Assembly: GCF_025369935.1 (NCBI RefSeq) | Contig: NZ_CP104467.1 | Coordinates: 1,867,001 to 1,931,000 of the forward strand | Origin: Paenibacillus andongensis | Lineage (GTDB): Bacteria > Bacillota > Bacilli > Paenibacillales > NBRC-103111 | Length of the DNA stretch: 64,000 bases | Direction: 5' to 3' | Part shown: in pieces, positions 16,237 through 59,850 of the stretch | Position numbering within the stretch: the first letter of the stretch is position 1 | Layout: each line of letters begins with the position of its first letter | Translations under genes and position numbers: made by a program | The notes under the pieces: model-generated | The model's database searches: none | What the model saw: only the letters and a program-made list of their open reading frames with translations | Told to the model about the DNA's origin: nothing

Positions 16237-16305
16237 CGGAGAGACTTTGAACTCCGTTCAAAGATCCAAAACTGAGAGACTTTGAGCACTGCTCAAAGAT
16301 CCCTA
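16237..16305 (+). repeat. Two CTTTG-hairpin repeats in the lonA leader
   Basis: Unit 1 stem CTTTGAAC / GTTCAAAG (16245-16263), unit 2 stem CTTTGAGC / GCTCAAAG (16280-16298), 35 bases apart. Both are preceded by GAGAGA and followed by GATCC, and unit 2 ends CCCTATA directly before the lonA Shine-Dalgarno. The A-T to G-C change is matched on both arms. Same family as the repeats at 21521, 28738, 58894 and 59818. The rest of the 16126-16236 gap shows nothing. Confidence 0.85.
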
Positions 16306-16323
16306 TAAATGGAGGTGCAGAGG

Positions 16324-18669
16324 ATGGGACCCGGAAAAATCAAGGTGCGCAGATTGCCGCTATTGCCTCTTAGGGGACTGCTGGTTTATCCGAGCATGGT
16401 TCTACATCTGGATGTAGGGCGAGAAAAGTCGGTTAAAGCACTCGAGCGGGCAATGGTGGATGACAGCATGATTCTCCTCTGCTCTCAATCAGAGATCAAC
16501 ATAGAAGAACCTGCCAAAGAGGATATTTATCGCATTGGGACAATTGCTAAGGTACGGCAAATGCTGAAACTGCCGAATGGAACCATTCGTGTCTTGGTAG
16601 AAGGCGTTTTGCGTGCTGAGATTGTTGAATACCTTGTAAATGATGAATATTATGAAGTCACGGCTAAGGAATTACCAGAGCAAGAGATCACCGATCCTGA
16701 GATTGATGCGCTCATGCGAAGTGTACTCAGCCAATTCGAGCATTACATTAATTTATCTAAAAAGGTTACACCAGAAACGCTTGCTGCTGTATCGGACATT
16801 GATGAACCAGGCCGTTTAGCAGATGTCATATGCAGCCATTTATCGCTCAAAATTAAGGATAAACAAGAGATTCTGGAGACCGTAGATGTACGTGAGCGTC
16901 TCGAGAAAATGCTCAATATCTTAAATAATGAGCGAGAAGTGCTTGAACTCGAACGTAAAATTAGTCAACGTGTTAAGAAACAAATGGAAAAAACGCAGAA
17001 GGAATACTACCTTCGCGAGCAGATGAAAGCCATCCAGAAGGAACTTGGCGATAAGGAAGGCCGTGCTGGTGAAGTAGATGACCTGCGCAACCAGTTGACG
17101 GAAGCTGAATTGCCAGAGAAAGTCCGCGAGAAGGTTGAGAAGGAAATCGACCGTTTAGAGAAGATGCCGGCGACTTCGGCCGAGGGAGGCGTCATCCGCA
17201 ACTATATTGATTGGCTGCTAGGACTGCCATGGTCCAAAAACACGGACGATGACTTGGATTTGGATAAAGCCGAGGAGATCTTGAACGAGGATCACTTCGG
17301 GCTTGATAAGCCAAAGGAACGCGTACTTGAGTATCTAGCGGTACAGAAGCTTGTTAAGAAGCTGAAAGGACCTATCCTTTGTTTAGTTGGTCCTCCGGGC
17401 GTTGGTAAAACCTCCATTGCTCGTTCGATTGCCAGATCCATGGGAAGACAGTTCATTCGTATCTCGCTTGGCGGGGTCAGAGATGAAGCTGAGATTCGCG
17501 GCCATCGTCGTACGTATGTAGGGGCTATGCCGGGACGGATTATCCAGGGGATGAAGAACGCTGGAACGAATAATCCTGTTTTCTTGCTAGATGAAATTGA
17601 TAAAATGGCAATGGATTTCCGCGGCGATCCGGCTTCGGCATTGCTTGAAGTTCTTGATCCCGAGCAGAATAGCACTTTTAGTGATCATTTCATTGAAGTT
17701 CCGTTTGACTTGTCCAATGTCATGTTCGTGACAACGGCGAATGCTGTTCACAATATTCCTCGCCCTCTGTTAGATCGGATGGAAGTTCTCTACATTCCTG
17801 GCTACACAGAGATTGAGAAGCTGCAAATTGCGAAAAAATATTTGCTGCCTAAGCAAAAGCGTGACCATGGTCTAGAAGAAGATCAACTTGTTGTGGATGA
17901 AGCTGCCTTAATGAAAATCGTTCGTGAATATACACGTGAAGCGGGCGTCCGTAATTTAGAGCAGCAGGTCGCAGGCATGAATCGCAAAGCAGCCAAAAAG
18001 ATCGTATCCGACCCAACTACACCGGTACATGTAACGGAAGAAAACTTGAAGGACTATCTAGGACCGAGCAAATTCCGGTATAGTGTAGCAGAAGAGAAAG
18101 ATCAAATAGGTGCTGTGACAGGCCTTGCTTGGACGGAAGTTGGCGGGGATACCCTAGTTATTGAGGTCACCGTTATGCCAGGAACAGGCAAATTGACTTT
18201 GACGGGTAAACTCGGTGATGTGATGAAGGAATCCGCACAAGCTGCTTTCAGTTATACACGCACGCGGGCTGATGTATTCGGCATTGCACCTGACTTTCAT
18301 GAGAAGAATGATATCCACATTCACATCCCTGAAGGCGCCATTCCAAAGGATGGTCCATCCGCAGGAATAACGATGGCGACGGCATTGATCTCAGCGTTGA
18401 CGAATATTCCAGTTTCCCGTATGGTAGCTATGACAGGTGAGATTACATTGCGCGGCCGAGTACTTCCAATCGGAGGACTCAAAGAAAAGGCGCTAGCTGC
18501 ACATCGAGCTGGTATCCGTACGATTCTGCTGCCTCAGGATAATGAGAAAGACATCATCGAAATTCCAGAAAGTGTCCGTGCCGAGATGACCTTCATTCCA
18601 GTCAGCCATATGGATCAAGTGCTGGAACATGCGCTTGTCAAAAATAAGCCTCCCGTGCAAGTCGGATAA
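16324..18669 (+). CDS. lonA: ATP-dependent protease La (Lon)
   Basis: Cytosolic AAA+ protease of 781 residues, degrading misfolded and regulatory proteins. Domain order: N-terminal substrate domain ([20 protein letters not shown]), coiled coil ([20 protein letters not shown], about 225-245), ATPase with Walker [10 protein letters not shown] and Walker [11 protein letters not shown], and a protease domain with the dyad Ser in [10 protein letters not shown] and Lys in [11 protein letters not shown]. The ATG at 16324 is chosen because GGAGGTG (16311-16317) is six bases upstream; the ATG at 16309 overlaps that site. Confidence 0.97.
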
Positions 18670-18692
18670 CGATAGAAAGTAGTTGAACATCC

Positions 18693-19352
18693 ATGAAAGT
18701 CAATCAAGCTGAGTTTATAATCAGTGCGGTTGGACCTAGCCAGTATCCAGAGGATGCCTTGCCAGAGATTGCTCTGGCAGGGCGTTCTAATGTCGGGAAA
18801 TCGTCACTCATTAACTGTATGATCTCCCGCAAAAATTTGGCCAGAACCAGCTCACAGCCCGGCAAAACCCAAACGCTAAATTATTATAAAATCAACCAGG
18901 ACTTATATTTCGTAGATCTTCCAGGTTATGGCTACGCCAAAGTTTCCAAAACGAAACGGGAGCAGTGGGGAAAATTCATTGAGAGTTACTTGATGAATCG
19001 AGAAACACTTCGTCTTGTTATGCAATTAGTTGATTTGCGGCATCCTCCTTCCAAAGATGATCAAGCTATGTACGAGTGGCTAAGACATAATGATGTGCCA
19101 GTCATTGTTATTGCGACCAAGGCTGATAAGATCCCGAAAAGCAGATGGCCTAAGCATATCAAGATTGTGCGAGAAACACTTGGGATGGATAAGGGTGTCC
19201 AGCCGTTGATGTTCTCCTCGGAACTTGGGCTCGGGAAAGACGAGCTGTGGGGGATTCTTGAGCAAGCCATTGCTTATGGAGAAGCAGAGCCTGAAGAAGC
19301 GAACGAACTTGTGATCGAGCAAGAACAAGATAAAGAACAAGAACCGTCCTGA
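18693..19352 (+). CDS. ysxC: Ribosome biogenesis GTPase YsxC/EngB
   Basis: Essential GTPase of the TrmE-Era-EngA superfamily needed for late 50S assembly. G-motifs: G1 [10 protein letters not shown] (about residues 30-39), G2/Thr region KTQTLNYY, G3 [10 protein letters not shown]4 TKADK, and a C-terminal [11 protein letters not shown]. 219 residues versus about 195 in B. subtilis, because of a Glu/Gln-rich tail ([17 protein letters not shown]). It begins 24 bases after lonA, with a weak ribosome binding site. Confidence 0.95.
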
Positions 19353-19371
19353 TTCATAGGGCGGTTTTTTG
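19343..19371 (+). terminator. Terminator overlapping the ysxC stop
   Basis: ACCGTCC (19343-19349) and GGGCGGT (19359-19365), followed by six T. The 5' arm lies inside the last codons of ysxC. Confidence 0.75.
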
Positions 19372-19596
19372 TGTAGGGATTAGGAGGACGTCAAAAGACA
19401 GAGAAAATCAAGAAGAAGCATACGGGAAAGCGAGGTTTACTGGGGAAAATTTGCTGGCATTCCGTAATTCCTTGGTTTTTTCAGAATATTTGGCTGATTA
19501 TAATGAATTGTACGCAGGAATATTAGAGACGCATGTAGTATAATAATAATCAAGGTAATAGTTAATGGCTTGAAAACAAAGAATCGAGGGATTTTT

Positions 19597-20184
19597 ATGG
19601 CACAAAGGTTAGCGACTGAATATGTCAAAACCTGCCTCCAGTTAACAGAAGCCGAGATGTTCAGGTTTTTTCAAATGTTTGTGGATCATCAAGTGACGTT
19701 GCAAGTGAAAGTCTTGGAAAATGGCAACCAAGAGGTTGTTTTTCAAGATGGAGCAGGTCAGGAAATCGTCCTTTCATTTGAGAAGAAATCGGGCCTATAT
19801 GAATGCACAGGATCCTGCAGATTAAGTAACACATTATTGGCTAATTTGATGCGTAAAGCGGTATCAGAGTTTAAAGGAAGCGCAACAGTAAACCGAATTT
19901 ACCCTAGTTACACCATGGTTTACTATTATGAACGTGGAACAGTCGTTAAGATCGAGGAAGTCAAAGGGCAATTGTTGACCGTTATTTATGAGTACAAAGA
20001 CACCATTGGTCAAATGCAGCAAATGTTCCAAAAGAGAGAAGTCGAGCAAGAGATTGAAATGATCTACGATCAAATTAACCATCTACTTGATTTACGCAAT
20101 ATGCTGCAGGGACAGGAAGAACATCAGCAGATCGACACTCGCCTCAATGAGCTAACACATCGTTTGTTTATATTGGAGGCTTAA
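19597..20184 (+). CDS. Conserved-looking protein of unknown function
   Basis: 195 residues. The N-terminal two thirds look like an alpha/beta domain (ATEYVKTCLQLTEAEMFRFF, then TLQVKVLENGNQEVVFQDGA), with RIYPSYTMVYYYERGTV in the middle. The C-terminal third is a coiled coil (KREVEQEIEMIYDQINHLLD). No signal or membrane segment. I recall similar proteins in Paenibacillus next to speD, sometimes with misleading names, but no known function. GAGGG six bases before the ATG at 19597 decides the start. The gap 19372-19596 has a good -10 (TATAAT at 19539-19544) but no -35. Confidence 0.75.
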   Translation: MAQRLATEYVKTCLQLTEAEMFRFFQMFVDHQVTLQVKVLENGNQEVVFQDGAGQEIVLSFEKKSGLYECTGSCRLSNTLLANLMRKAVSEFKGSATVNRIYPSYTMVYYYERGTVVKIEEVKGQLLTVIYEYKDTIGQMQQMFQKREVEQEIEMIYDQINHLLDLRNMLQGQEEHQQIDTRLNELTHRLFILEA

Positions 20185-20208
20185 CCACACATATACCACT
20201 ATTACAAT

Positions 20209-20235
20209 AGACCCTTTTTAGGGTCTTTTTTGTTT
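20209..20235 (+). terminator. Terminator before the speD leader
   Basis: AGACCCT / AGGGTCT with loop TTTT, then a T-run. Confidence 0.8.
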
Positions 20236-20307
20236 TAAGACACTTGGTAAAAAAAACTATTGCATTTCTCGTCGATAGATGTTATTTTTATTCTCGTTGA
20301 AACAATA

Positions 20308-20419
20308 TAGGAACCAGGATTCACTCAGGACATTGAATGTTGCGAGAGATTATACCCTCGGGAAGTGAATGACGTAGGTCCTAGCGGATGAAATTTTTTT
20401 CAGACATTTTATTCCTAGG
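20308..20419 (+). promoter_or_regulatory. Structured leader of speD, candidate riboregulator
   Basis: Closing helix TAGGAACC (20308-20315) with GGTCCTA (20377-20383, one bulge); second helix ATTCACT (20319-20325) with AGTGAAT (20364-20370); inside it two hairpins, ACAT-tga-ATGT (20330-20340) and CGAG...CTCG (20343-20360). After eight T comes CTAGGA (20415-20420), which can pair with TCCTAG of the closing helix and lies on the speD Shine-Dalgarno. This gives two exclusive folds. I cannot match it to a known riboswitch class. Confidence 0.5.
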
Positions 20420-20435
20420 AAGGGGGAACCGAAAG

Positions 20436-20843
20436 ATGGAAACAGAATACTCAACTTTCGGAAGACACGTTGCTGTAGATACTTGGGGGGTAGATTTCGA
20501 ACTTCTGAACAATGCAGATTGGCTGCAGGCTCAGATGGTAGAAGCTGCCGAGGTATGCGGAGCAACCGTACTATCTGTACAATCCAAGCAATTTGAACCA
20601 CAAGGAGCAACTGTACTTGTTATGTTGTCCGAGAGTCATCTCTCCATTCATACTTATCCTGAGAGAGGTTTTGCCGCGCTTGACTGCTATACATGCGGTG
20701 AGACAGTGGACCCTCAATTAGCAATTGACTTTATGGTATCCGTATTGAAACCAGAAACATTCTATGCGAAGAAATTAGTTCGCGGAATGGGTGAACTACA
20801 AGTTGAAACTCCTGAAATAAAGCAAGCAGAGCTTGTTAAATAA
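20436..20843 (+). CDS. speD: S-adenosylmethionine decarboxylase proenzyme
   Basis: Makes decarboxylated SAM, the aminopropyl donor for spermidine. A 135-residue prokaryotic class 1B enzyme. The self-cleavage site is in LSESHLSIHTYPE (about residues 61-73): cut before the second Ser, which becomes the pyruvoyl group. The catalytic Cys is in LDCYTCGET. The start is the ATG at 20436 after AGGGGG; earlier in-frame codons belong to the leader. It is a single-gene unit with its own terminator; speE is not in the window. Confidence 0.95.
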   Translation: METEYSTFGRHVAVDTWGVDFELLNNADWLQAQMVEAAEVCGATVLSVQSKQFEPQGATVLVMLSESHLSIHTYPERGFAALDCYTCGETVDPQLAIDFMVSVLKPETFYAKKLVRGMGELQVETPEIKQAELVK

Positions 20844-20865
20844 GAATCTGCGCATAACAATAACG

Positions 20866-20897
20866 ATAACCACGGAGAAATCCGTGGTTATTTGTTT
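20866..20897 (+). terminator. Terminator after speD
   Basis: ATAACCACGGA / TCCGTGGTTAT with a GAAA loop, followed by TTGTTTG. Confidence 0.8.
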
Positions 20898-20969
20898 GTC
20901 CAGATACCCATACAATGTTATTGCGACACATGTCCGAACATGAAGCAAACATGAATTGGGGGAACGGAA

Positions 20970-21506
20970 TTGAAACAAAAAATAGTTAGAAAAGCAGTGA
21001 TTTACAGTGTTGTTGTCTTCCTCATTATCTGGCCTATCTATCAGCTCATTCAAATACTAGGCCCGCATAAAGAAGAGCATGATGCTACCCATCTCCTGTA
21101 TCAAGTATCTCTGTTTCAGATGGAACTTCTAAAGAGCTATCTGGAAGAAGCTGCTCAAAGCAAGGATACCGAAGGGTTGAATGCTGTGGGGCAAGCCCTT
21201 TACTCGGCAAGTTATACACATGAACGCCTGGTGCTCGCTGCAGGAGGAAGTGAATATCTGACTACACTGGACAGCATGACCCAGCTAACGCAATACTTGA
21301 AGCGTATGCAGGTGGGGGGAGAGCGCACATTAAAGCCTGATGAGCTCCAAGTTTTGAAGGAAGTTTGGCTTCAATACAAGAGTATGTACGATCTGTATGA
21401 AAAAATTATGGCTTCGAATGGCGATATTGTTTCGTCCCAAAATACGAAGCTGGCTGAACTAGATCGAAATTTAACCTCTTTTATTCGAAAAAAAGCACTT
21501 CAATAA
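20970..21506 (+). CDS. Single-span membrane protein of unknown function (ysxD position)
   Basis: 178 residues: an N-terminal membrane anchor (AVIYSVVVFLIIWPIYQLI, about residues 9-27), then a mostly helical extracytoplasmic or cytoplasmic domain with no cysteine and no recognised motif (LYQVSLFQMELLKSYLEEAA, then EVWLQYKSMYDLYEKIM). In B. subtilis the unknown membrane gene ysxD lies between ysxC and hemA; this may be a positional analogue but I see no sequence basis for homology. The start is TTG, with GGGGG about nine bases upstream. The hairpin array begins 15 bases after its stop. Confidence 0.7.
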   Translation: MKQKIVRKAVIYSVVVFLIIWPIYQLIQILGPHKEEHDATHLLYQVSLFQMELLKSYLEEAAQSKDTEGLNAVGQALYSASYTHERLVLAAGGSEYLTTLDSMTQLTQYLKRMQVGGERTLKPDELQVLKEVWLQYKSMYDLYEKIMASNGDIVSSQNTKLAELDRNLTSFIRKKALQ

Positions 21507-21520
21507 AGGACTTATAGAAA

Positions 21521-21840
21521 ACTTTGAGCAACGCTCAAAGATCCCAAAGCGGAGAGACTTTGAGCTACGCTCAAAGATCCCAAAGTGGAGAGACTTTGAG
21601 CAACGCTCAAAGATCCCAAAGCGGAGAGACTTTGAGCAACGCTCAAAGATCCTAAAGCGGAGAGACTTTGAGCAACGCTCAAAGATCCTAAAGCGGAGAG
21701 ACTTTGAGCAACGCTCAAAGATCCTAAAGCGGAGAGACTTTGAGCAACGCTCAAAGATCCTAAAGCGGAGAGACTTTGAGCAACGCTCAAAGATCCTAAA
21801 GCGGAGAGACTTTGAGCAACGCTCAAAGATCCCTATATTA
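21521..21840 (+). repeat. Nine tandem 36-bp hairpin repeats between the 20970 gene and hemA
   Basis: Units begin at 21521, 21557, 21593, 21629, 21665, 21701, 21737, 21773 and 21809, exactly 36 bases apart. Each is ACTTTGAGC-aac-GCTCAAAGATCC, a short link and GGAGAG. Units 1-3 have CCCAAAG and 4-8 CCTAAAG in the link, and unit 2 has loop TAC, so the array has partly homogenised by duplication. The last unit ends CCCTATA, like the single copies elsewhere. There are no spacers, so it is not a CRISPR array. Confidence 0.95.
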
Positions 21841-21930
21841 GGTATATACGAACCGAATGCTGTTAAAACTAACGAGAAGTAAAGCATTCATAATTTATAC
21901 AAAAAATTTGTCGGATTGCTTGTTTTGCTG

Positions 21931-21939
21931 TGCTATAAT
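21931..21939 (+). promoter_or_regulatory. Extended -10 promoter of the hem operon
   Basis: TGCTATAAT (TATAAT at 21934-21939) is a consensus extended -10, 37 bases before the hemA start. The best -35-like hexamer, TTGTCG (21908), is 20 bases away, so it probably depends on the TGn extension. It lies downstream of the repeat array. Confidence 0.65.
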
Positions 21940-21975
21940 GGGACATAGAATTAGACGGAAAGGCAGGTGGTACCT

Positions 21976-23379
21976 TTGCATATTATCGCACTAGGCTTGA
22001 ATTATCGTACGGCCCCGGTAGAAATTCGGGAGAAGTTCGCTTTCTCCGATCAGGATTTACCTAAGGCATTGGCAGAATTGAAAGAAACGAAAAGTATATT
22101 GGAGTGTGTAATTGTCGCCACCTGCAATCGCACGGAAATCTACGCTGTTGTGGATCGACCGCAGATGTGCAGTCATTATTTGACACACTTCATTGAACGT
22201 TGGTTCCAAGTCGGTAAGGATCAATTCCAAAAACATTTATATATGTATGAAAATGAAAAAGCGATTGAACATTTATTCCGCGTAACAAGCGGGTTAGATT
22301 CCATGGTCATTGGGGAAACCCAAATTCTAGGACAAGTGCGTGATGCTTTTTTATCATCTCAAAATATGAAAGCAACCGGAGCTTATTTCAATACATTGTT
22401 TAAGCAATCCGTGACACTTGCCAAAAAAGCACACTCCGAAACAGGCATTAGCAATAATCCAGTTTCCATCAGTTATGCCGCGGTGGAACTTGGTAAACGA
22501 ATATTCGGTACCTACATGAACAAGACGGTTATGATTATTGGTGCTGGTAAGATGAGCGAACTCACTGTGAAGCACCTTTACGCAAATGGCGCTAACAAAG
22601 TTATCGTGGTTAACCGTACGTTTGAACGTGCAGTAGAATTGGCCCAGAAATTTAACGGTATTCCATGTACCATGGATAACATGCCCGAGCATCTAGCGGA
22701 AGTGGACATTATTATTAGCTCGACAGGCGCTCCGGGATATGTTCTTACGAAGAATGATATTCAGTCCTATGTTCAAAAAAGAAAATCACGTCCGCTTTTT
22801 ATGATGGATATTGCGGTCCCTCGGGATCTAGATCCGCAAATTAGCGGCTTACCTAATGTTTTTCTTTATGATATCGATGATCTGGAGAATATCGTTGATA
22901 AGCATTTGCAGGAGAGAAAGAAAGAAGCAGCTAAGATTGAAACGATGATTGAAACTGAAATGGGTGTTTTCGAACAATGGACGAAGACGCTAGGTGTAAG
23001 TCCGGTCATTAGCGCTCTTCAAACAAAAGCGAGTCAGATTCACGAAGAGACGATGGATAATATGCTAAAGAAGCTGCCGGACCTAGATGAACGTGAAATT
23101 AAAGTTATTCGTAAATTAACGAAAAGCATTGTGAATCAAGTGCTGCGAGACCCGATCCTTCGCATTAAGGAAATGGCGGGAGAGCGGCATGGTGATGAAG
23201 CGCTCGAGCTATTCACGAAACTGTTTGCCCTAGAAGAGACCCTTGAACAACAAGAACAAGCCGATCAGTTAGCACAAGAACTAGAAGCCGGGCATAAAGC
23301 AGTTGAAGCTAAGCAGTTGCTGGATGAGAAGTTGTCCGTGCTTAGTTTACAGAACGCTGATGTTCTAGCCCAATCTTGA
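21976..23379 (+). CDS. hemA: Glutamyl-tRNA reductase
   Basis: First committed step of heme synthesis: reduces Glu-tRNA to glutamate-1-semialdehyde with NADPH. Motifs: catalytic Cys in VIVATCNRTEIYAV (about residues 41-54), GLDSMVIGETQILGQVRDAF, NAD-binding GAGKMSELT, and the dimerisation helices at the C-terminus. 467 residues; the C-terminal 30 are Gln/Glu/Ala-rich and vary in the family. Start TTG at 21976: AGGTGG is five bases before it and the product then begins MHIIALGLNYRTAPVEIREK, aligning with B. subtilis HemA. It heads a run of nine tetrapyrrole genes. Confidence 0.96.
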   Translation: MHIIALGLNYRTAPVEIREKFAFSDQDLPKALAELKETKSILECVIVATCNRTEIYAVVDRPQMCSHYLTHFIERWFQVGKDQFQKHLYMYENEKAIEHLFRVTSGLDSMVIGETQILGQVRDAFLSSQNMKATGAYFNTLFKQSVTLAKKAHSETGISNNPVSISYAAVELGKRIFGTYMNKTVMIIGAGKMSELTVKHLYANGANKVIVVNRTFERAVELAQKFNGIPCTMDNMPEHLAEVDIIISSTGAPGYVLTKNDIQSYVQKRKSRPLFMMDIAVPRDLDPQISGLPNVFLYDIDDLENIVDKHLQERKKEAAKIETMIETEMGVFEQWTKTLGVSPVISALQTKASQIHEETMDNMLKKLPDLDEREIKVIRKLTKSIVNQVLRDPILRIKEMAGERHGDEALELFTKLFALEETLEQQEQADQLAQELEAGHKAVEAKQLLDEKLSVLSLQNADVLAQS

Positions 23380-23412
23380 AGAAAAGGGCGCTAATCGCCT
23401 AGGAGAGGTGCC

Positions 23413-28709: not shown

Positions 28710-28737
28710 GAATGAGAATAGATGGAAACCAATCGGA

Positions 28738-28768
28738 TAGACTTTGGCTTAGGGCCAAAGATCCCTAT
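28738..28768 (+). repeat. Single CTTTG-hairpin repeat in the hemE leader
   Basis: Stem CTTTGGC / GCCAAAG (28742-28748, 28754-28760) preceded by AGA and followed by GATCCCTATA. The end of the element is five bases from GGAAGGTG, the hemE Shine-Dalgarno. The GGC/GCC pair differs from lonA and hemA copies but is fully complementary. Confidence 0.85.
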
Positions 28769-28784
28769 ATATGGAAGGTGCCTC

Positions 28785-38309: not shown

Positions 38310-38582
38310 ATTGGAAACGTTGATAGGGAGTAGTAGTCGGTAAGCCCTTCAGAGAGTGGAACTGGTAGCGCTGAAAGGTTCCATAGGAAGCAACCGAACG
38401 AAGTCGCCCTGGAGTAGTGAATGTGATTGTATGCATCCGTTTAAGCGGTGAGCAGCATTAGCATTCGCCGGCCGCAGCCGTTATCTGTTTGAGAGCCACG
38501 CGCTTCTTTTGAAGCTGCGCGGAATGAAGGTGGTACCACGGAAGCAAGCCTTTCGTCCTTTGCGGGCGGAGGGCTTTTTTTG
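38310..38582 (+). promoter_or_regulatory. T-box leader of valS (specifier GTC)
   Basis: tRNA-Val-sensing attenuator. Stem I: AGGG...CCCT with the S-turn AGTAG on the 5' side and, on the 3' side, ACGAAGTCG holding the Val codon GTC at 38403-38405 followed by a purine; above it TCGGT / ACCGA closes. The T-box AATGAAGGTGGTACCACGG is at about 38523-38541, and the terminator AAGCCTTTCGTCC...GGGCGGAGGGCTT plus seven T at 38544-38582. Uncharged tRNA-Val should favour read-through. Confidence 0.93.
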
Positions 38583-51374: not shown

Positions 51375-51902
51375 GTGATTCGACATCTATTGTGGCTCAT
51401 TCTACTCGGTTTGTTTATCCTGCAAGGAACTTTGCTTGTTTGGCTGATCCCTTCATCATGGCAATCTAGCGTTAATGTTACACCCCATTTAACACTTGTT
51501 TTCATATTGTTTATCGGACTTTTTCATCATCGTCATACCGCATTAATTTATGGGCTTTTGTTCGGACTATTGCACGACTTTAACTATTATGGATCGATGC
51601 TAGGTGTATATTCCTTCGGTATGGGGCTTACTGGTTATTTGGCCGGACTGGCACAGCGAAGGCAGCCTAATTTGATTTTTTATAATTTACTCATAACTGG
51701 CGTTGGTTTGCTCTTGTTTGAGTTTATTAATTATGGAATTAATCGGTTGTTCAAGCTCATTGATATTGATTTGAAGTTTGCTCTCACCCACTACATGCTT
51801 CCGAGTGTTCTATTTAATCTGCTCATCGCCTTGATTTGCTACGTTCCTATCCGCAAGCTGCTTGAAGGAAAGCGGATTGTGCCGTCCGGAAACGAAGATT
51901 AA
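51375..51902 (+). CDS. mreD: Rod shape-determining protein MreD
   Basis: Polytopic membrane partner of MreC, 175 residues with about five hydrophobic helices. HRHTALIYGLLFGLLHDFNY is the conserved loop/helix region (G-x-L-x-D-x typical of MreD). Start GTG at 51375, 14 bases after mreC. Confidence 0.92.
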   Translation: MIRHLLWLILLGLFILQGTLLVWLIPSSWQSSVNVTPHLTLVFILFIGLFHHRHTALIYGLLFGLLHDFNYYGSMLGVYSFGMGLTGYLAGLAQRRQPNLIFYNLLITGVGLLLFEFINYGINRLFKLIDIDLKFALTHYMLPSVLFNLLIALICYVPIRKLLEGKRIVPSGNED

Positions 51903-51974
51903 TTTTCCAGGCTCTAGGCAGGAGAATTCAGGACATGAACCGAAATGTATAGGTTGGGAGGTCGTAGCGCAATT

Positions 51975-52634: not shown

Positions 52635-52674
52635 TCATTTGTAATTGTAAAAATAGCGTGTGGGGTGAGGAAAT

Positions 52675-53469
52675 ATGGGAGAGGCAATCGTCGTCACTTC
52701 AGGAAAAGGTGGCGTTGGTAAGACAACGACATCTGCGAATCTTGGAACGGCACTAGCGCTTTTAGGGAAAAAAGTTTGTATGGTAGATACCGACATTGGT
52801 CTGCGCAATCTGGATGTGGTCATGGGTCTGGAAAACCGTATTATTTATGATCTTGTGGATGTTGCAGAAGGCCGCTGCCGTTTGCCGCAAGCATTGATTA
52901 AGGATAAGCGCTTTGATGAGCTTTATCTTTTGCCAGCTGCTCAAACGAAGGATAAGCATGCCGTATCCCCAGAGCAAGTAAGAGATATTATCTTGGAGCT
53001 CAAAAAAGATTTCGAATTTGTCATAATTGACTGTCCAGCTGGCATCGAACAAGGCTTTAAGAATGCCGTAGCCGGTGCAGACAAAGCGATCGTTGTTACT
53101 ACACCGGAAAATGCGGCTGTACGTGATGCTGATCGCATTATCGGTTTGCTGGAGAATGAGAAAATTTCCTCACCTAAGTTAGTCATTAACCGCATTCGTC
53201 CCATGATGATGAAGAAAGGTGAGATGCTGGACATTGATGAAATATGCTCGGTACTCGCCATCGATTTGTTAGGGATAGTTCCAGATGACGAGCATGTGAT
53301 CAAAGCAGCCAACTTAGGTGAACCCACCGTAATGAATCCGTCGTCGCGCGCAGCGATTGCTTACCGCAATATCGCTCGTCGTATTCTGGGCGACACGGTG
53401 CCGCTCATGCAATTGGAGGACAAAACCGGCTGGGTCAAACGTATGAAAAAGTTTATCGGAATAGGATGA
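52675..53469 (+). CDS. minD: Septum site-determining protein MinD
   Basis: Membrane-associated ATPase of the ParA/MinD type that places MinC. 264 residues. Deviant Walker A TSGKGGVGKTTTSANLG (about residues 7-23), DTDIGLRNLD, IIDCPAGIEQGF, and a C-terminal amphipathic membrane-targeting helix (GWVKRMKKFIGIG). GGGGTGAGG precedes the ATG. Confidence 0.97.
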   Translation: MGEAIVVTSGKGGVGKTTTSANLGTALALLGKKVCMVDTDIGLRNLDVVMGLENRIIYDLVDVAEGRCRLPQALIKDKRFDELYLLPAAQTKDKHAVSPEQVRDIILELKKDFEFVIIDCPAGIEQGFKNAVAGADKAIVVTTPENAAVRDADRIIGLLENEKISSPKLVINRIRPMMMKKGEMLDIDEICSVLAIDLLGIVPDDEHVIKAANLGEPTVMNPSSRAAIAYRNIARRILGDTVPLMQLEDKTGWVKRMKKFIGIG

Positions 53470-53476
53470 TAGACCC

Positions 53477-54625
53477 GTGCTTGCCAAACTGAAAAACATA
53501 GATATTCCTATTGTTGTCATTTTGATTGCCTTTATGGTCATTAGCACGATGCTTGTGTACAGTGCATCTGTCGATCATCCAAAAATTAACGTTAGTATCA
53601 CAAAAATACTGGTCTTATACGGCGTTGGTCTAGCAGCATTCGTTGCAAGCAGTTTATTTGATTATCGAGTATTAATTAGAATCGCTCCCTATCTTTATGG
53701 TATCGGCATCTTTTCTTTGGTCGCTGTCTACTTTTTTGGGACGAAAATTCATGGGGCGCGCGGCTGGTTTGAACTCCCGGGCGGCTTAACCTTTCAACCA
53801 GCGGAGTTAGTGAAGTTAATTCTAATCGTGGCTGTTACCGCACTACTGGCAAGACGCAAAGGTGATTTACTGCAAATCAAGAATGATATTATCCCAGTCG
53901 GTGCAGCCGTGTTATTACCGTTTATTTTGGTCCTCATTCAACCTGATTTAGGGAATGCGATCATTTTTGTGATCATTCTGTTGGGAATGATTTGGATTGG
54001 TAATATTAAATACTCGCATGTCTTACTTAGCACCGTCGTACTCATAGGCGCTGGTTTCTTGCTTTTGACGTTATATAAGTATTTCCATCACTCCTTGTTT
54101 GAACTGCTTAAGGGTTATGGTTTCAGTCATTGGATGGATCGTATTGATACGTTCCTTTATCCCCAAGAGGTGTCTGCTGATGATAATTATCAGGTTCGTA
54201 ATGCGGTAAGAGCGATCGGTTCAGGAGGCTTGGAAGGCGAAGGTTTTCTGAAAGGCACCTCTGTTCATAGTAATTTCATTCCATTCGCGTATTCCGATTC
54301 GATTTTCGTCGTAGTTGGTGAAGAATTCGGTTTCCGCGGGTCTGCTGTCCTCTTGTTGATCTATTTTTTACTCATCTACCGTATGATCCTCATTTCGATC
54401 CAAAGTACTCAGCTTAGCGGAGCTTATGTTGTAGTCGGTGTGGTTTCCATGTTCGTCTTTCAAATTTTTGAAAATGTCGGGATGATGATTGGTATCATGC
54501 CGTTAACGGGAATCACCCTTCCTTTCGTCAGTTATGGGGGAACTTCTCTACTGATTAATATGCTTTCATTAGGCCTCGTGATGAGCGTAAAGCTGCATCA
54601 GGAACGCGAACCTGAATTTTTCTGA
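53477..54625 (+). CDS. rodA: SEDS-family peptidoglycan polymerase (RodA/FtsW/SpoVE)
   Basis: Membrane glycosyltransferase polymerising lipid II, 382 residues with about ten helices. Family motifs: GARGWFELPGGLTFQPAELVK (shown in part: ARGWFELPGG, FQPAELVKL), VLIQPDLGNAIIF, and the C-terminal PLTGITLPFVSYGGTSLL. The location right after minD, in an mre/min cluster, fits RodA; distinction from FtsW or SpoVE is by context. Start GTG at 53477, seven bases after minD. B. subtilis lacks a SEDS gene here. Confidence 0.92.
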   Translation: MLAKLKNIDIPIVVILIAFMVISTMLVYSASVDHPKINVSITKILVLYGVGLAAFVASSLFDYRVLIRIAPYLYGIGIFSLVAVYFFGTKIHGARGWFELPGGLTFQPAELVKLILIVAVTALLARRKGDLLQIKNDIIPVGAAVLLPFILVLIQPDLGNAIIFVIILLGMIWIGNIKYSHVLLSTVVLIGAGFLLLTLYKYFHHSLFELLKGYGFSHWMDRIDTFLYPQEVSADDNYQVRNAVRAIGSGGLEGEGFLKGTSVHSNFIPFAYSDSIFVVVGEEFGFRGSAVLLLIYFLLIYRMILISIQSTQLSGAYVVVGVVSMFVFQIFENVGMMIGIMPLTGITLPFVSYGGTSLLINMLSLGLVMSVKLHQEREPEFF

Positions 54626-54642
54626 ATATCTAGGAATGCAGT

Positions 54643-54673
54643 GCCCTTGACCTTTGGTCAGGGGCTTTTTTTG
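54643..54673 (+). terminator. Terminator after rodA
   Basis: GCCCTTGACC / GGTCAGGGGC, a ten-pair stem with one G-T, followed by seven T. Separates the shape/division operon from spoIVF. Confidence 0.85.
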
Positions 54674-54676
54674 TCC

Positions 54677-54705
54677 ACATAATCTTGTCCCTCTTCTCAT
54701 AGGCT
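54677..54705 (+). promoter_or_regulatory. Possible sigma-E promoter of spoIVFAB
   Basis: ACATAAT (54677-54683), 14 bases, CATAGGCT (54698-54705), a partial match to KMATATT-14-CATACAHT. spoIVF of B. subtilis is sigma-E-dependent, which is the main reason to propose it. Confidence 0.35.
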
Positions 54706-54736
54706 GTACAAAGGTTAACGATGGGGAGGGGCTTCC

Positions 54737-55630
54737 ATGGAAGTCAAAGATAAAGTGAAACAGCGGAGGATAGAACGACTTCGCAATTTGCGCGAAACGT
54801 CAGATCCTTCTAACGGGAGTGGAAGTCCAATGATACCCACTCGAAATAGGGGGAGTTCATTGCCTATACATCACCATTCCGAAATATCTCACTATGTGGA
54901 TCCAGAATGGAAACGGCGAATGGAAGATCCTGAGTATGCATGGCAGCAAAAATTATTAATGGACCCAGCTTTGGTTGGGCGAGATTATTTGAGGGATGGT
55001 GAAAGAGGGTTATTAGCTCCGCCTTCGCCTCGTAAGATTGCGGTCAAGCTGTTCATTAGCTGCGTATTGTTTGCAGCGCTGTACGGGATGTTCCAGCTTA
55101 ATCAGCCTTGGGCTAATAAAGGGAAGCAATTCGTGACCTCTTCGCTTACACAGTCGTACGATTTCTCGTCGCTGTCCGCTTGGTATAGCGATCAGTTTGG
55201 TGGGTCACCTTCGTTCATTCCCAGCTTCAATCGGGAAGGGAATGAGGCCATTAAAGTGAATGCCACTAAGCGCACCTTTTTCACTCCAGCAAAGGGAAGC
55301 ATTGTTACGCGATATGACGGAACTTCTCATATCGGAGTTAATTTGAACACCATTGAATTTGCACCGGTTTATGCGCTGGATACAGGTCAGGTCATCTTCT
55401 CCGGAGTAGCTGCAGATACGGGCTTAACGATTGTGATTCGCCATCCAGGAGGTCTCCAATCCTTGTATGGCGGATTGAGTGAGGCCAGTGTTGAGGTAGG
55501 CGACTGGATGAAAGTTGGTGAACCCGTCGGTAAGGCTTCCAAGAAGGATCCTGCAAAGGGGACGCTTTACTTTGCTGTTACGAAGGACGGGCATCCCGTC
55601 AACCCATCGGATGTGATCAGCTTTGATTAA
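54737..55630 (+). CDS. spoIVFA: Stage IV sporulation protein FA (LytM/M23 domain)
   Basis: Membrane protein that holds the SpoIVFB protease inactive in the outer forespore membrane until the forespore signal arrives. 297 residues: a long charged cytoplasmic region (1-98), one membrane helix (IAVKLFISCVLFAALYGMFQ, about 101-120) and a LytM-like domain (about 190-295) with GSIVTRYDGTSHIGVNL, IVIRHPGGLQSLYGGL and KGTLYFAVTKDGHPVNP. The metallopeptidase His residues look incomplete, consistent with a degenerate fold. GGGAGGGG precedes the ATG. Overlaps spoIVFB. Confidence 0.9.
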   Translation: MEVKDKVKQRRIERLRNLRETSDPSNGSGSPMIPTRNRGSSLPIHHHSEISHYVDPEWKRRMEDPEYAWQQKLLMDPALVGRDYLRDGERGLLAPPSPRKIAVKLFISCVLFAALYGMFQLNQPWANKGKQFVTSSLTQSYDFSSLSAWYSDQFGGSPSFIPSFNREGNEAIKVNATKRTFFTPAKGSIVTRYDGTSHIGVNLNTIEFAPVYALDTGQVIFSGVAADTGLTIVIRHPGGLQSLYGGLSEASVEVGDWMKVGEPVGKASKKDPAKGTLYFAVTKDGHPVNPSDVISFD

Positions 55631-56498
55631 ATGGGCCGGAACTACGTACCGATTCCACCCCCTATTTACACTCATTATGATTGGCTCTGCCATTACAGGC
55701 TACTTCCTGGAGGCCGTTACGTTATTTGGCATCGTACTGGTTCATGAGCTTGGTCATTTGGCTGCGGCGAGCGGCTTTGGGTGGAGGGTGCGGGAAGTGC
55801 AGCTTCTGCCTTTTGGTGGAGTCTTGATCGTTGATGAGCTTGGAACGGCTCCAACGCGTGAAGAACTTATTGTCTCCCTAGCTGGGCCGCTGCAGCATGT
55901 ATGGATGATTCTTATTGCTTTGCTGATGAAATGGGTGGACGTGGGCGCAAGCAGTTGGTGGGATTATTTCATTGAGGCAAATATAATGATTGGCTTATTT
56001 AATCTCATTCCAGTCATGCCGCTCGATGGCGGCAAAGTGATGCAGTCATTGTTAGGGTATTTATTGTCCTACCATAACACAATTTTATATACAACTTGGA
56101 TCAGTATGATATTAAGCTTGGCCATTATTGCAATAGCCATTATCCAACTGATTAGCGGACACCTCCCGCTCAATATATTAGTTATCGGTATTTTCTTGCT
56201 TGTATCCAATTGGTACGCCTATCGGCAGCTGCCCTATCACTTTTTTCGTTTTCTTATGGGGCGCGGAACCCGAATGAGCAGGCTTTTGAGCCGCGGGACA
56301 TTAGCACAGCCAATTATCATTACGAGACATCGCACAATGGCGGAAACATTGAAGCTTTTTATGAGGGAAAAATATCATTTAATCTATATCGTAGGAGAAA
56401 CGGGGCGCATACAAGCCGTATTGCCGGAACAGCAATTAGTGAGCGGTTATTTGGATGGGAAAAAACCGGGGAGTGCAGTTTCCGATCTTTTCATGTAA
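55623..56498 (+). CDS. spoIVFB: Stage IV sporulation protein FB (site-2 protease)
   Basis: Intramembrane metalloprotease that cleaves pro-sigma-K. 291 residues. HELGHLAAASGFGW (about residues 41-54) holds the HExxH zinc motif; the third ligand is in NLIPVMPLDGGKVMQSL. Six hydrophobic helices, then a C-terminal CBS-like domain (about 225-285). Start TTG at 55623, inside the last codons of spoIVFA, an eight-base overlap. Confidence 0.93.
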   Translation: MIKWAGTTYRFHPLFTLIMIGSAITGYFLEAVTLFGIVLVHELGHLAAASGFGWRVREVQLLPFGGVLIVDELGTAPTREELIVSLAGPLQHVWMILIALLMKWVDVGASSWWDYFIEANIMIGLFNLIPVMPLDGGKVMQSLLGYLLSYHNTILYTTWISMILSLAIIAIAIIQLISGHLPLNILVIGIFLLVSNWYAYRQLPYHFFRFLMGRGTRMSRLLSRGTLAQPIIITRHRTMAETLKLFMREKYHLIYIVGETGRIQAVLPEQQLVSGYLDGKKPGSAVSDLFM

Positions 56499-56521
56499 AA
56501 TAACTGTTGAGGTGAACGTGT

Positions 56522-57685
56522 ATGAAGCAACTTATAATTCACTGCGCACCTGATCTTACACAAGCGGCATTGCTTGAAGAAAGTCGACTTGTTGAGTATG
56601 ATACGCAGTATCCGCTTGATTCTCAAAGAGCAGGCAGCATCTACATGGGTCGCATCGTCAACGTCCTTCCCGGCATGCAGGCGGCATTCGTCGATATCGG
56701 TCTTGCGAAGAATGCCTTTCTATATATAGACGACCTCCTACCCGTCCACTTGGACAAGCAGCCTAAGATTAAACCTTCAATAACGGAGCTCGCCGAAGTC
56801 GGTCAGACGCTGATGGTGCAGGTGACGAAGGATCCGCAAGGTACCAAAGGTGCAAGAGTAACAACACATGTTTCTATTGCTGGCCGCTGGATTGTCTACA
56901 TGCCAGACGCTGATTATATTGCAATCTCCCGTAAAATTGATTTGGACGCAGAACGGCAGCGCCTCAAACAGCTTGCTGAAGGCAGCTTGCTGCCTGGTGA
57001 AGGTGTTATTATACGAACGGGTGCTATTGGTCAAAGTGAAGAAGCGATTCGTGATGATTTGCAAAATTTACGAGAATTATGGAGTGCCATTGTCTCCAAA
57101 ATGGAAGAGGTACACGCACCTGCACAGCTGTATCAGGATCTTGATCTTTTGCCAAGATTAGCCCGAGATGTCATTACAGATGACGTTCATGAAGTTTGGC
57201 TCAATGACGCCAAGGTGTACGAAGAGATGAAACAATTATTACGAAAGCAGCAGCCGAGTTGGCGAGGGCGCGTAGCTTTTTATGACCGCAAGATTCCTTT
57301 GTTTGATCAATTTGGTGTCACGGAAGAACTGAATCAAAGCTTTAGACGTAAAATTTGGCTGCCTAGCGGCGGATATTTGGTCATTGATCAAACCGAAGCA
57401 CTTACCGTTATTGATGTGAATACGGGAAGGTACACCGGATCCATTGATTTAGAACAGACAGTTACCGATATTAATCGAGAAGCGGCGAGTGAAATTCCAA
57501 GGCTTCTGCGGCTTCGTAATATAAGAGGCATTATTATTGTTGATTTTATAGACATGAGTTCGGAAGTAAATCGAGCAGCCGTGATGGAGAACATCACACA
57601 AGCCGTGCGTAAGGATCGCTCCAAAACGATTATTGTGGGTTGGACCAAGCTAGGTCTGCTTGAGATGACGCGTAAGCGGAAATAA
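56522..57685 (+). CDS. rng: Ribonuclease G/E family endoribonuclease
   Basis: Endoribonuclease that cuts single-stranded RNA. 387 residues: S1 domain (SIYMGRIVNVLPGMQAAFVD, about 39-58), RNase H-like and 5'-sensor region, and the catalytic DNase I-like part with TVIDVNTGRYTG (Asp about 300) and IIIVDFIDMSSEV (Asp about 341). It ends at KLGLLEMTRKR, so it lacks the zinc-link and small domain seen in E. coli RNase G (489 residues); this short form occurs in Bacillota next to rplU. B. subtilis itself lacks it. Confidence 0.93.
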   Translation: MKQLIIHCAPDLTQAALLEESRLVEYDTQYPLDSQRAGSIYMGRIVNVLPGMQAAFVDIGLAKNAFLYIDDLLPVHLDKQPKIKPSITELAEVGQTLMVQVTKDPQGTKGARVTTHVSIAGRWIVYMPDADYIAISRKIDLDAERQRLKQLAEGSLLPGEGVIIRTGAIGQSEEAIRDDLQNLRELWSAIVSKMEEVHAPAQLYQDLDLLPRLARDVITDDVHEVWLNDAKVYEEMKQLLRKQQPSWRGRVAFYDRKIPLFDQFGVTEELNQSFRRKIWLPSGGYLVIDQTEALTVIDVNTGRYTGSIDLEQTVTDINREAASEIPRLLRLRNIRGIIIVDFIDMSSEVNRAAVMENITQAVRKDRSKTIIVGWTKLGLLEMTRKRK

Positions 57686-57688
57686 TAA

Positions 57689-57718
57689 TTGCATTACAAA
57701 ATGTTTCTGTGATATAAT
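57689..57718 (+). promoter_or_regulatory. Promoter of the rplU-prp-rpmA operon
   Basis: TTGCAT (57689-57694), 18 bases, TATAAT (57713-57718), with TGA directly before the -10 as an extended element. Confidence 0.75.
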
Positions 57719-57830
57719 ACTCGGAGTGTGTTGTTTAGGCATGCTGTAACCGCACGAATCGGGTCTAAGCACGGATTTGGATTTGATCCTACCGTCACCT
57801 GGACAAGGCGAGTCTGAGACATGAGGAGGT
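57719..57830 (+). promoter_or_regulatory. L21 ribosomal protein leader
   Basis: The about 110-base leader has the usual position and features of the Bacillota L21 leader RNA: an early hairpin region (GCATGCTGTAACCGCACGAA), a middle part (CCTACCGTCACCTGG), and the final GAGTCTGAGACATGAGGAGG before rplU. It is believed to bind L21 for feedback control. I identify it by location and these sequence blocks, not by a covariance model. Confidence 0.7.
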
Positions 57831-57837
57831 AATGAAA

Positions 57838-58149
57838 ATGTACGCAATTATTGAAACAGGTGGTAAACAGTACAAAGTTCAAGAGGGCGATGTTCTTTAC
57901 ATCGAAAAATTGAACGCAGCTGAAGGTGAAGTTGTTTCTTTTGATCGTGTGTTCTTGGTTTCCAAAGAGAGCGGCTTAGTAGTAGGTGCTCCATTGGTTG
58001 CTGGTGCTTCAGTTTCCGCGAAAGTGGAGAAACACGGCAAAGGCGCTAAAGTCATCGTTTATAAGTACAAGCCGAAAAAGAACTATCACAAAAAGCAAGG
58101 TCATCGTCAACCGTACACAAGAGTAGTAGTTGAGAAAATCCAAGCGTAA
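57838..58149 (+). CDS. rplU: 50S ribosomal protein L21
   Basis: 103 residues starting [18 protein letters not shown] and ending [11 protein letters not shown], with [18 protein letters not shown] as the rRNA-binding segment. The ATG at 57838 is chosen: GGAGGT is directly beside the ATG at 57832. Confidence 0.98.
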
Positions 58150-58160
58150 GAGGCAGCCTT

Positions 58161-58514
58161 ATGATCTATGTGACCATAGAGCGTCTTGCACCGGATTCAC
58201 CTCAAATCTCATCTTTTGTAGTGGAAGGCCATGCTGAATATGACGTACCTGGCAAAGACTTGGTCTGCGCTGCAGTATCGGCGGTAACGTTCGGTACTTA
58301 TAATTCGATTGAATCGCTGACGGGTGTGATTCCTATTCACGAGATGGAACGAGGCTTGATGGATGTTACCATTCCAGAGAGTACACGATCTGTTCCGGAG
58401 ACATGGAATAAAGTCCAATTGATTCTTGAATCGATGGTCGTCATGCTACAAACCATTGCAGATAATTACGGTGACTATATAACGATTGAAACAATCTATC
58501 ACAAAGGAGGATAA
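58161..58514 (+). CDS. prp: Ribosomal-processing cysteine protease Prp
   Basis: Cleaves the N-terminal extension of L27 before it enters the 50S subunit. 117 residues. Catalytic pair: His in [16 protein letters not shown] (about residue 23) and Cys about 12 residues later in LVCAAVSAV. Formerly YsxB. Its target sequence is present in the next gene. Located between rplU and rpmA as in most Bacillota. Confidence 0.95.
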
Positions 58515-58518
58515 CACC

Positions 58519-58830
58519 ATGTTGAAATTGGATCTCCAGTTTTTCGCTTCCAAAAAAGGGGTGGGTTCCACAAAGAACGGACGTGACTCACACTCTAAGC
58601 GCCTTGGCGCTAAACGTGCTGACGGTCAAACCGTTACTGCTGGAAGCATTCTCTACCGCCAACGCGGTACGAAAATTCACCCAGGAACGAACGTAGGCAT
58701 CGGTTCGGATGATACACTTTTCGCTTTGGTACAAGGCGTAGTGAAATTCGAGCGTTGGGGCCGCGATCGCAAAAAAGTGAGCGTATACCCAGTTGATGTA
58801 GCTCCTGTGGCTGCAGCTTTAGAAGCGTAA
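58519..58830 (+). CDS. rpmA: 50S ribosomal protein L27 (precursor)
   Basis: 103 residues. The N-terminus [20 protein letters not shown] contains the extension removed by Prp, with cleavage expected after LQFFA, leaving mature SKKGVGST; the freed N-terminal tail reaches the peptidyl-transferase centre. AAAGGAGG precedes the ATG at 58519. Confidence 0.98.
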
Positions 58831-58834
58831 TTTG

Positions 58835-58873
58835 AATCCCTGGCGAGCGATAAGCCCGCCCAGGGATTTTTTT
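58835..58873 (+). terminator. Terminator after rpmA
   Basis: AATCCCTGG / CCAGGGATT with a GC-rich interior, then seven T. Confidence 0.85.
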
Positions 58874-58893
58874 CTAACTACAGAACAAGCCTT

Positions 58894-58928
58894 ATATAGG
58901 GATCTTTGGTCGGATGCCAAAGTCTCTC
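58894..58928 (-). repeat. Single CTTTG-hairpin repeat after rpmA (inverted)
   Basis: On the minus strand GAGAGACTTTGG-catccga-CCAAAGATCCCTATA; the stem CTTTGG / CCAAAG has a seven-base loop. Same conserved flanks as the lonA, hemA, hemE and obg copies, opposite orientation. Confidence 0.8.
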
Positions 58929-58938
58929 ATCTTAGAAA

Positions 58939-58981
58939 GCGGTCACTCATCTCGAATGACCGAAAGCAGAGGTTTTCTCAT
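58939..58981 (+). repeat. Second dispersed repeat, copy 1
   Basis: GCGGTCACTCATC, two bases, GAATGACC, six variable bases and AGAGGTTTTCTCAT. A near-identical copy is at 63797-63839. GGTCA / TGACC can form a stem. It lies between the rpmA terminator and spo0B. Confidence 0.7.
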
Positions 58982-59060
58982 TTGTTTGGTGAAGTTTGCT
59001 AGTACATCGTGATATACTGGATGAACGGTTACAAAGCAGGGAGAACGGAGCGAACGGGGA

Positions 59061-59816
59061 ATGAAACGAGCAGGTAGTACGCAAGTATATTTAATAGCAC
59101 TTGTGCTCATAGGATTGACTGGAATGATGTTTATGGAACCCTGGATTGTCAGGGGCGCATTATTTTTCATCGTCGTCATCAGTGGTTATACTGCATTCAA
59201 GTTGGAAGCGAGTAGATTGGAAGAGAAATGGAGCCAAGAGCTCCGTCAACAGGAACATCAGTCTCAACAGAAGTTAATACAAGTTATAAATCGCTCACGT
59301 CACGATTGGATGAACGATACCCAAATTTTGTTTGGTTATATTCAGTTAAAGAAGTTTGATAATTTACAGCCCTATATGGAAAAAATAAAAATGACTATGC
59401 AGCAGGAAAGTAATCTCTCCAAGTTAGGTATTCCATCGTTAATTGCTTTCTTGTTGCTGTTTCGCGTCCAGTCAAAATCACTAGAGCTGGAAGTTGAATT
59501 AGATCAAGAAATCAATCTTGGACAACTTCCTTTGCATGACGGCCTCATCGAAAGATTGGTTCGTCAAACCGTGGAATGCGTCCAAGAGCATGCTGCGGCA
59601 AGTGACGGTGAAAGCGGTACACTCAGCTTGGAATTTGATGTTCAAGAAGATGGCTTACTGCTTGATTTTGTATATCAAGGCCCCTATAACAGGGAGCAAC
59701 TTGAAAAGGCCGTGAAGGCAACCCTGCTTCCGAAAGTGGATTCTTATTCACTTGAGCAGAGTGAATGGCAAGAGGAAGAAGCGGTCATCACATTACGGTT
59801 ACCGTTTCGTACATAA
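59061..59816 (+). CDS. spo0B: Sporulation phosphotransferase Spo0B, membrane-anchored form
   Basis: Passes phosphate from Spo0F to Spo0A in the sporulation phosphorelay. 251 residues. The phosphoryl-accepting His81 lies in NRSRHDWMNDTQILFGYIQL, matching SRHDWMN of B. subtilis Spo0B; the following helix and a degenerate ATPase-like domain complete the protein. Unlike the 192-residue B. subtilis protein it starts with two hydrophobic helices (STQVYLIALVLIGLTGMMFM and GALFFIVVISGYTAF), which should anchor it to the membrane. Lies before obg, as in B. subtilis. Confidence 0.9.
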   Translation: MKRAGSTQVYLIALVLIGLTGMMFMEPWIVRGALFFIVVISGYTAFKLEASRLEEKWSQELRQQEHQSQQKLIQVINRSRHDWMNDTQILFGYIQLKKFDNLQPYMEKIKMTMQQESNLSKLGIPSLIAFLLLFRVQSKSLELEVELDQEINLGQLPLHDGLIERLVRQTVECVQEHAAASDGESGTLSLEFDVQEDGLLLDFVYQGPYNREQLEKAVKATLLPKVDSYSLEQSEWQEEEAVITLRLPFRT

Positions 59817-59817
59817 T

Positions 59818-59850
59818 AAAGGGATCTTTGGTCCAAGACCAAAGTCTCTC
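59818..59850 (-). repeat. Single CTTTG-hairpin repeat in the obg leader (inverted)
   Basis: Minus strand GGAGAGACTTTGGTC-ttg-GACCAAAGATCCC; plus-strand stem CTTTGGTC (59826-59833) / GACCAAAG (59837-59844). Sits between the spo0B stop and the obg Shine-Dalgarno GAGGTG. Stem bases GGTC/GACC are unique to this copy. Confidence 0.85.

Follow-up and report, generated by a model that had tools for sequence, protein, structure and literature searches.

A dispersed hairpin family in Paenibacillus: a candidate palindromic mobile element with a GG border

Hairpin copies in the window and their structure

The stretch of Paenibacillus andongensis DNA considered here (64,000 nt of contig NZ_CP104467.1, positions 1,867,001 to 1,931,000; the window, numbered from its first letter) contains lonA, hemA, hemE, rpmA, spo0B and obg, and beside these genes a short hairpin recurs in 14 copies: two at lonA, nine in an array at hemA, and one each at hemE, between rpmA and spo0B, and at obg. 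The 14 copies at five loci proposed in the initial annotation have all been located with coordinates and strands (Table 1). The core hairpin measures 19 nt, most commonly CTTTGAGC-TAC-GCTCAAAG, and lies within the fixed flanks GAGAGA and ATCCC; the whole element is ~40 nt long, with the layout AGAGACTTT-(covarying stem, ~3-nt loop)-AAAGATCCC-TATAWWW between two bordering GG pairs. The motif GAGAGACTTTG has 12 exact matches in the window, and 23 when two mismatches are allowed, which is no excess above chance. An Rfam scan of the whole window returns four matches, none of them at the hairpins, and only matches far below the gathering threshold at the hemA array.

Table 1. Hairpin copies and known RNA elements of the window
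Feature	Position	Strand	Remark
lonA leader, hairpin copy 1	16238..16271	+	internal tandem unit
lonA leader, hairpin copy 2	16273..16312	+	right end CCCTATAAAT adjoins GGAGG (lonA Shine-Dalgarno sequence)
hemA-upstream array, first unit	21522..21547	+	truncated, without GAGAGA
hemA-upstream array, seven further units	21551..21802	+	tandem 36-nt units starting at 21551, 21587, 21623, 21659, 21695, 21731, 21767
hemA-upstream array, final unit	21803..21842	+	complete right end CCCTATATTAGG
hemE leader, one hairpin	28735..28774	+	right end TATATAT adjoins GGAAGG
Gap between rpmA terminator and spo0B, one hairpin	58890..58929	-	immediately after CCT
Gap between spo0B stop and obg Shine-Dalgarno sequence, one hairpin	59812..59851	-	antisense to obg; TG instead of GG at the right border
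Cobalamin riboswitch	5683-5885	+	Rfam scan
tRNA	6651-6724	-	Rfam scan
T-box leader	38311-38563	+	Rfam scan
L21 leader	57738-57825	+	Rfam scan

Two placements in the initial annotation need correction. The copy assigned to rpmA/spo0B is present, but it is situated behind the rpmA terminator. The array at hemA stops ~125 nt short of the hemA start and precedes a TATAAT-like box (21934-21939, read by eye), so that it is probably outside the hemA leader. Its nine copies derive mostly from tandem duplication of a single 36-nt unit and should be counted as one site. The number of units differs between relatives, with nine matches here and four in genome G004 (C16:50713-50853), where orthology is taken from the position between the lonA and hemE matches.

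As the initial annotation had claimed, changes on one side of the stem are compensated on the other. In the 72 distinct rows obtained from 85 matches of the P. andongensis genome, 95.9% of the cells pair; double-sided stem changes number 51, against 13.5 +/- 2.8 after shuffling and no more than 13 when the pairing is slid, and the covariation score is 0.274, against 0.092 +/- 0.010 for shuffles, in an alignment that was fitted to a covariance model and thus favours structure. The number of pairs with any double-sided change (4) lies within the shuffle range (96 of 500). A second set comprises 196 distinct copies from all fetched DNA, selected by their flank letters alone and including orthologues, so that they are not independent: stem position 5 is occupied by GC 164, TA 13 and AT 11 times, position 6 by AT 139 and GC 38 times, and at position 7 all four Watson-Crick types are common (GC 89, TA 40, AT 27, CG 19).

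A dispersed family with occupied and empty sites

The pattern GAGAGACTTTGN(4-16)CAAAGATC has 51 matches in the 7.64-Mb genome of P. andongensis and none in the reversed control. The covariance model search suggested by the initial annotation, in which a first pass gave 3394 candidates and 150 were scored, finds 86 matches at E <= 1; with matches less than 200 nt apart merged, they fall into 57 places and form a dispersed family. Of the 30 genus genomes, 28 carry the strict pattern (the exceptions are G018 and G029), and the number of copies ranges from 0 to 82, the highest counts being found in G016 (82), G001 (75), G003 (63), G004 (55), P. andongensis (51) and G017 (47). The pattern is absent from all 30 non-genus genomes of the family and order. 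A wider search of the family gives 30 positive genomes out of 104, namely the same 28 and two of the 74 others, which belong to another genus and carry two copies each. Paenibacillus phytorum, P. alginolyticus, P. chondroitinus and P. pectinilyticus are among the relatives found through Obg. The initial annotation knew of no description of the hairpin, and none appears in the titles and abstracts of the literature matches listed for Paenibacillus repeats, which suggests that the family is new as far as the literature was searched.

Carriage by phages, viruses or plasmids has been considered and rejected. There is no phage match, the one match on a viral contig (L352) is without the fixed right flank and looks coding by eye, and plasmids yield a single record, a related array on the 2.7-Mb replicon of P. 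cellulosilyticus (L353, about 2990-3125). The same core hairpin recurs there in three tandem units, with the diverged flanks GAGTGAC and ATCCTGATGTA, immediately before the Shine-Dalgarno-like AAGGAGAG; the linker contains GTAG, which is the tag of one class of repetitive extragenic palindromic (REP) elements.

Orthologous sites, whose comparison the initial annotation had proposed, exist in both occupied and empty states at six positions, i.e. rpmA-spo0B, hemE, aspS, lonA and the 5′ and 3′ flanks of 23S rRNA, so that gain and loss of copies are well supported. Between rpmA and spo0B, 11 relatives (L051, L054-L062, L068) are empty and read ...AACCT/CTAA... or a near variant, while occupied alleles carry the insert directly after CCT, with one hairpin in the window and two in L052 and L243; L063 and L064 are too diverged at this site for comparison. 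The hemE site is occupied in five of 29 readable genus genomes and empty in 24 (G002 is masked); G000, G001, G004 and G017 share one position, and the G021 copy lies elsewhere in the same leader. The aspS copy is present in 13 of the 30 genomes and missing from 17, the sequence read there containing one to six units, and the lonA hairpin is found in 23 of 30. Parsimony on an aspS-lonA-hemE tree of the 30 genomes (27 forks, five of them open), with the G021 hemE copy scored as present despite its position, requires at least three changes at hemE, three at aspS and four at lonA. At obg, copies are clear in L051, L052, L054, L055 and L056, weak in L059 (E 0.17), visible by eye as hairpin-like remnants in L058, L060 and L062, and absent from L053, L057, L061, L063, L064 and L068.

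Ribosomal operons behave similarly. The 5′ flank of 23S is occupied in 1/9 operons of P. andongensis, 8/9 of G016, 0/8 of G003, 0/5 of G025 and 0/4 of G020, and the 3′ flank in 2/10, 0/10, 3/8, 0/5 and 4/4, respectively; the operons were retrieved with an occupied query, and occupied ones are over-represented if anything. Copies on the two flanks are in inverted orientation, as expected if they paired into a processing stalk of pre-23S rRNA and the other copies were by-products. This idea is rejected as highly improbable, since none of the 35 operons with two readable flanks, from five genomes, carries both copies, even with that bias towards occupied operons.

A second alternative dispenses with transposition: the copies would stem from a handful of ancestral hairpins through homologous recombination, gene conversion and slippage, with empty sites as deletions. 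Varying unit numbers (one to six at aspS, and the nine and four at hemA) agree with it, as do the 5′ copies of G016, which comprise two stem types in four operons each. It is nevertheless very unlikely, given that distant sites share the element and not its flanks, that 5′ flanks are empty in all eight operons of G003, as they are in the five of G025, and that the hemE copy of G021 occupies a different place.

The GG border and the genes behind the copies

The empty host alleles of rpmA-spo0B, hemE, lonA, aspS and the two 23S flanks already contain the GG found at the right border of the element. At hemE, for example, the empty sequence of G003 reads GGAAACCCAGA-GG-AAGG and the occupied one of G017 GGAAACCAATC-GG-AGAGAC...TATATAT-GG-AAGG. 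Where empty alleles can be aligned, the left host flank extends to a few bases short of the right-hand GG. GG stands exactly 7 nt after CCC in 88 of 130 terminal copies from all fetched DNA (orthologues included, hence not independent) and in 29 of 48 terminal copies of the stricter P. andongensis set; the commonest linkers are TATATTA, TATATAT and TATAAAT. On the left, the dinucleotide is GG in 64 cases, TG in 26, AG in 19 and another in 2 (n=111), and both borders are GG in 29 of 82 single copies, TG or AG also occurring on the left.

The 57 places of P. andongensis, tabulated by start-codon position and orientation as the initial annotation had advised and classified by simple open reading frame and Shine-Dalgarno rules, comprise 30 sense leaders, seven antisense leaders and 20 other locations. 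For 23 of the 30 sense leaders the distance from the right end to the start codon is 9-18 nt; of the 23 whose right end is within 18 nt of that codon, 22 have the right-border GG. Both Shine-Dalgarno sequences (AGGAGG) and the ends of 23S (GGTTAAGC, either strand) offer GG, which would explain the bias towards leaders as well as the inverted copies beside 23S. The GG border rule holds well in leaders and rRNA flanks.

The same placement could be read in terms of function, i.e. as a family of cis-regulatory leader RNAs, kept before Shine-Dalgarno sequences to control translation or mRNA stability. Over half of the places are sense leaders, most of them at the short distance given above, with seven more in antisense, and the lonA leader is well conserved: in seven species the block from hairpin to Shine-Dalgarno sequence has 88.9% mean pairwise identity and the promoter region 92.9%, against 67.3% and 77.1% in two spacers. 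These values refer to seven of the 23 hairpin-bearing genomes, the others being dropped as hard to align with certainty, owing to tandem units or longer leaders. The lonA stem is GATC/GATC in G021 and GAGC/GCTC in the others. The lonA hairpin is thus old and well kept, perhaps domesticated at this one site; its conservation may also be due to gene conversion from other copies.

The genes behind the copies give a different picture. Those of 28 of the 30 sense leaders were scanned (all but lonA and hemE), and the 25 with a family match include a SigW-like sigma factor, aspS, a threonyl-tRNA-synthetase-like protein, an IMPDH/GMP-reductase-domain protein, floA, a SufBD-core protein, a Clp ATPase, a sugar ABC permease, an alpha-galactosidase, a chromate transporter and PgpA, among others. 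With functions so mixed and sites polymorphic, a regulon is rejected. A leader RNA family is in turn unlikely, as copies occur in both orientations, beside 23S, behind the rpmA terminator and upstream of the hemA promoter region, and those at hemE and aspS are absent from close relatives. The initial annotation had offered two options. A cis-acting RNA family serving proteolysis, heme and ribosome assembly is unsupported as a regulon, in view of the mixed genes, the copies at 23S and behind genes and the frequently empty hemE and aspS sites; a REP-like mobile repeat finds support in kind, through dispersal, empty sites, tandem growth and compensatory stems. What it had named as speaking against a function, namely no excess of covariation, no leader bias or mere duplication, was not found, and the leader bias has a simpler cause.

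Two other repeats have been seen alongside the hairpins. A second dispersed, structured-looking repeat (GAGAAAACCTC...GGATGAGCGACCGCGTTTA...) lies in the window at about 63680-63850 (-), where a terminator-like hairpin follows it, and at 58934-58975 (-), and elsewhere in the genome near 10183, 4465573 and 6513177; it has no weighty Rfam match. It seems to be a landing site, as hairpin copies lie at or within it in four places. Another inverted-repeat insert, with a core like AAGCTTTGTAGCTGATTCCG, follows GCTTAACC at the 23S 3′ flank in L253-L256 (G025, 4/5 operons) and L251 (G003, 1/8), and a stretch similar to it adjoins, on the right, the P. andongensis hairpin copies at 1032437 and 3290696.

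Known elements and a possible mode of movement

Several known systems resemble the family in part. Like GTAG and CGTC REPs, it has a palindrome in the 20-40-nt range (19-nt core, ~40 nt in total), many dispersed and mostly extragenic copies, clusters, and an imperfect hairpin specific to one strand. REPs usually exceed 100 copies per genome, as described in PMC2817692, compared with the 86 matches at 57 places in P. andongensis; elsewhere the strict copies number 0 to 82. According to PMC3733652, whose main text does not mention Paenibacillus, CGTC REPs have no dedicated transposase. Unlike REPs, the family lacks an unpaired GTAG or CGTC; its fixed ends are (G)GAGAGA and ATCCCTATAWWW(GG), the right one bordered by GG, and it lands at Shine-Dalgarno sequences and 23S ends. 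Unlike GTAG REPs, it is accompanied by no REP-associated tyrosine transposase (RAYT) in four high-copy genomes.

With insertion sequences of the IS200/IS605 type and their miniature derivatives, the family shares a hairpin that has a bulged base in one of its strands, a short sequence fixed at one border and the lack of a long target duplication. It differs in its single hairpin and in the absence of tnpA and tnpB at the element and from G001, G003 and G016. Bacterial miniature inverted-repeat transposable elements such as Bcr1, NEMIS, ERIC and RUP are likewise non-coding, dispersed and near genes; they have terminal inverted repeats of 15-30 bp (PMC3733652), unlike the present element, which is entirely one hairpin with unlike ends.

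The GG rule recalls IS607, described as inserting at a GG dinucleotide, with GG at its termini and no duplication (PMC6188088), and a miniature element moved by an IS607-type serine transposase through duplex exchange at GG would account for the target and for the frequent GG at both borders. The family differs in being ~40 nt long and gene-free and in its covarying hairpin. Such strong covariation would be unexpected for an enzyme that acts on duplexes, and TnpB, the usual partner gene of this transposase type, is absent from the three genomes just named, which makes this origin quite unlikely.

A non-autonomous, REP-like palindromic mobile element of ~40 nt with a GG border, moving as a folded single strand, is the explanation towards which we lean, with modest confidence. 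The element would insert at GG pairs, the right-hand GG being derived from the host; copies would gather just before Shine-Dalgarno sequences in sense orientation and beside rRNA, both being GG sites. Copies also grow in tandem. Movement as folded single-stranded DNA is proposed because the minus strand has CC at both borders and can form a longer imperfect hairpin, a combination that resembles the substrate logic of REP/RAYT and IS200/IS605 systems. When both strands of three copies are folded as DNA, the minus strand forms this longer helix, with T as the bulged base (AGGGA-T-CTTTG / CAAAG-TCTCT), in lonA copy 2 and the obg copy, and not in the hemE copy; in aligned copies the position of the bulge is constant and the facing base varies. 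The mobilising enzyme may have been lost, be very divergent, or be supplied in trans, and a few insertions, lonA above all, may have been retained as leader hairpins.

Several observations weigh against this explanation. Only 34 of the 57 places have the right-border GG, and outside the tight sense leaders the figure is 12 of 34 (3/7 in loose sense leaders, 0/7 in antisense leaders, 9/20 elsewhere). Copies without GG may be older and decayed, or insertion may be less strict than the leaders suggest; the seven antisense copies lie near start codons although their right GG is absent, and the Shine-Dalgarno sequence is itself under selection to remain GG-rich. The left junction is blurred by differences of 0-4 nt. 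A strand test on 114 distinct cores, with 26 G.T and 32 A.C mismatches, reveals no clear strand preference. Profiles for Y1 transposases and TnpB reveal no mobiliser, IS607 TnpA and other recombinases not having been searched for. Y1 (PF01797) matches five of the 30 genus genomes, including P. andongensis with one partial match, and is absent from G001, G003, G016 and G017; TnpB (PF07282) matches five of the eight genomes searched and is absent from G001, G003 and G016. Neither the 10 Y1 loci read (of 13 matches) nor the 22 TnpB loci (of 22) have a hairpin or ends that match the element, apart from one match at chance level (E 3.1). A resident Y1 or TnpB element is accordingly rejected as the source, being absent from high-copy genomes and without the hairpin at its loci. 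A bolder proposal is that of a new class of one-hairpin mobile elements with a GG insertion rule, whose enzyme would be neither a Y1/RAYT transposase nor linked to TnpB; they would be a recurrent source of leader hairpins, among which the one at lonA would have become a conserved leader element. This proposal is doubtful for now.

Small palindromic repeats are usually discussed together with RAYT transposases and Proteobacteria. With a family that has dozens of copies, clear occupied and empty sites, a simple bordering rule and no recognisable transposase (Y1 or TnpB) in its richest genomes, it becomes possible to test how REPs without a transposase are moved. In Paenibacillus, hairpins can reach positions before ribosome-binding sites and beside rRNA without a regulatory plan, and occasionally be retained there.

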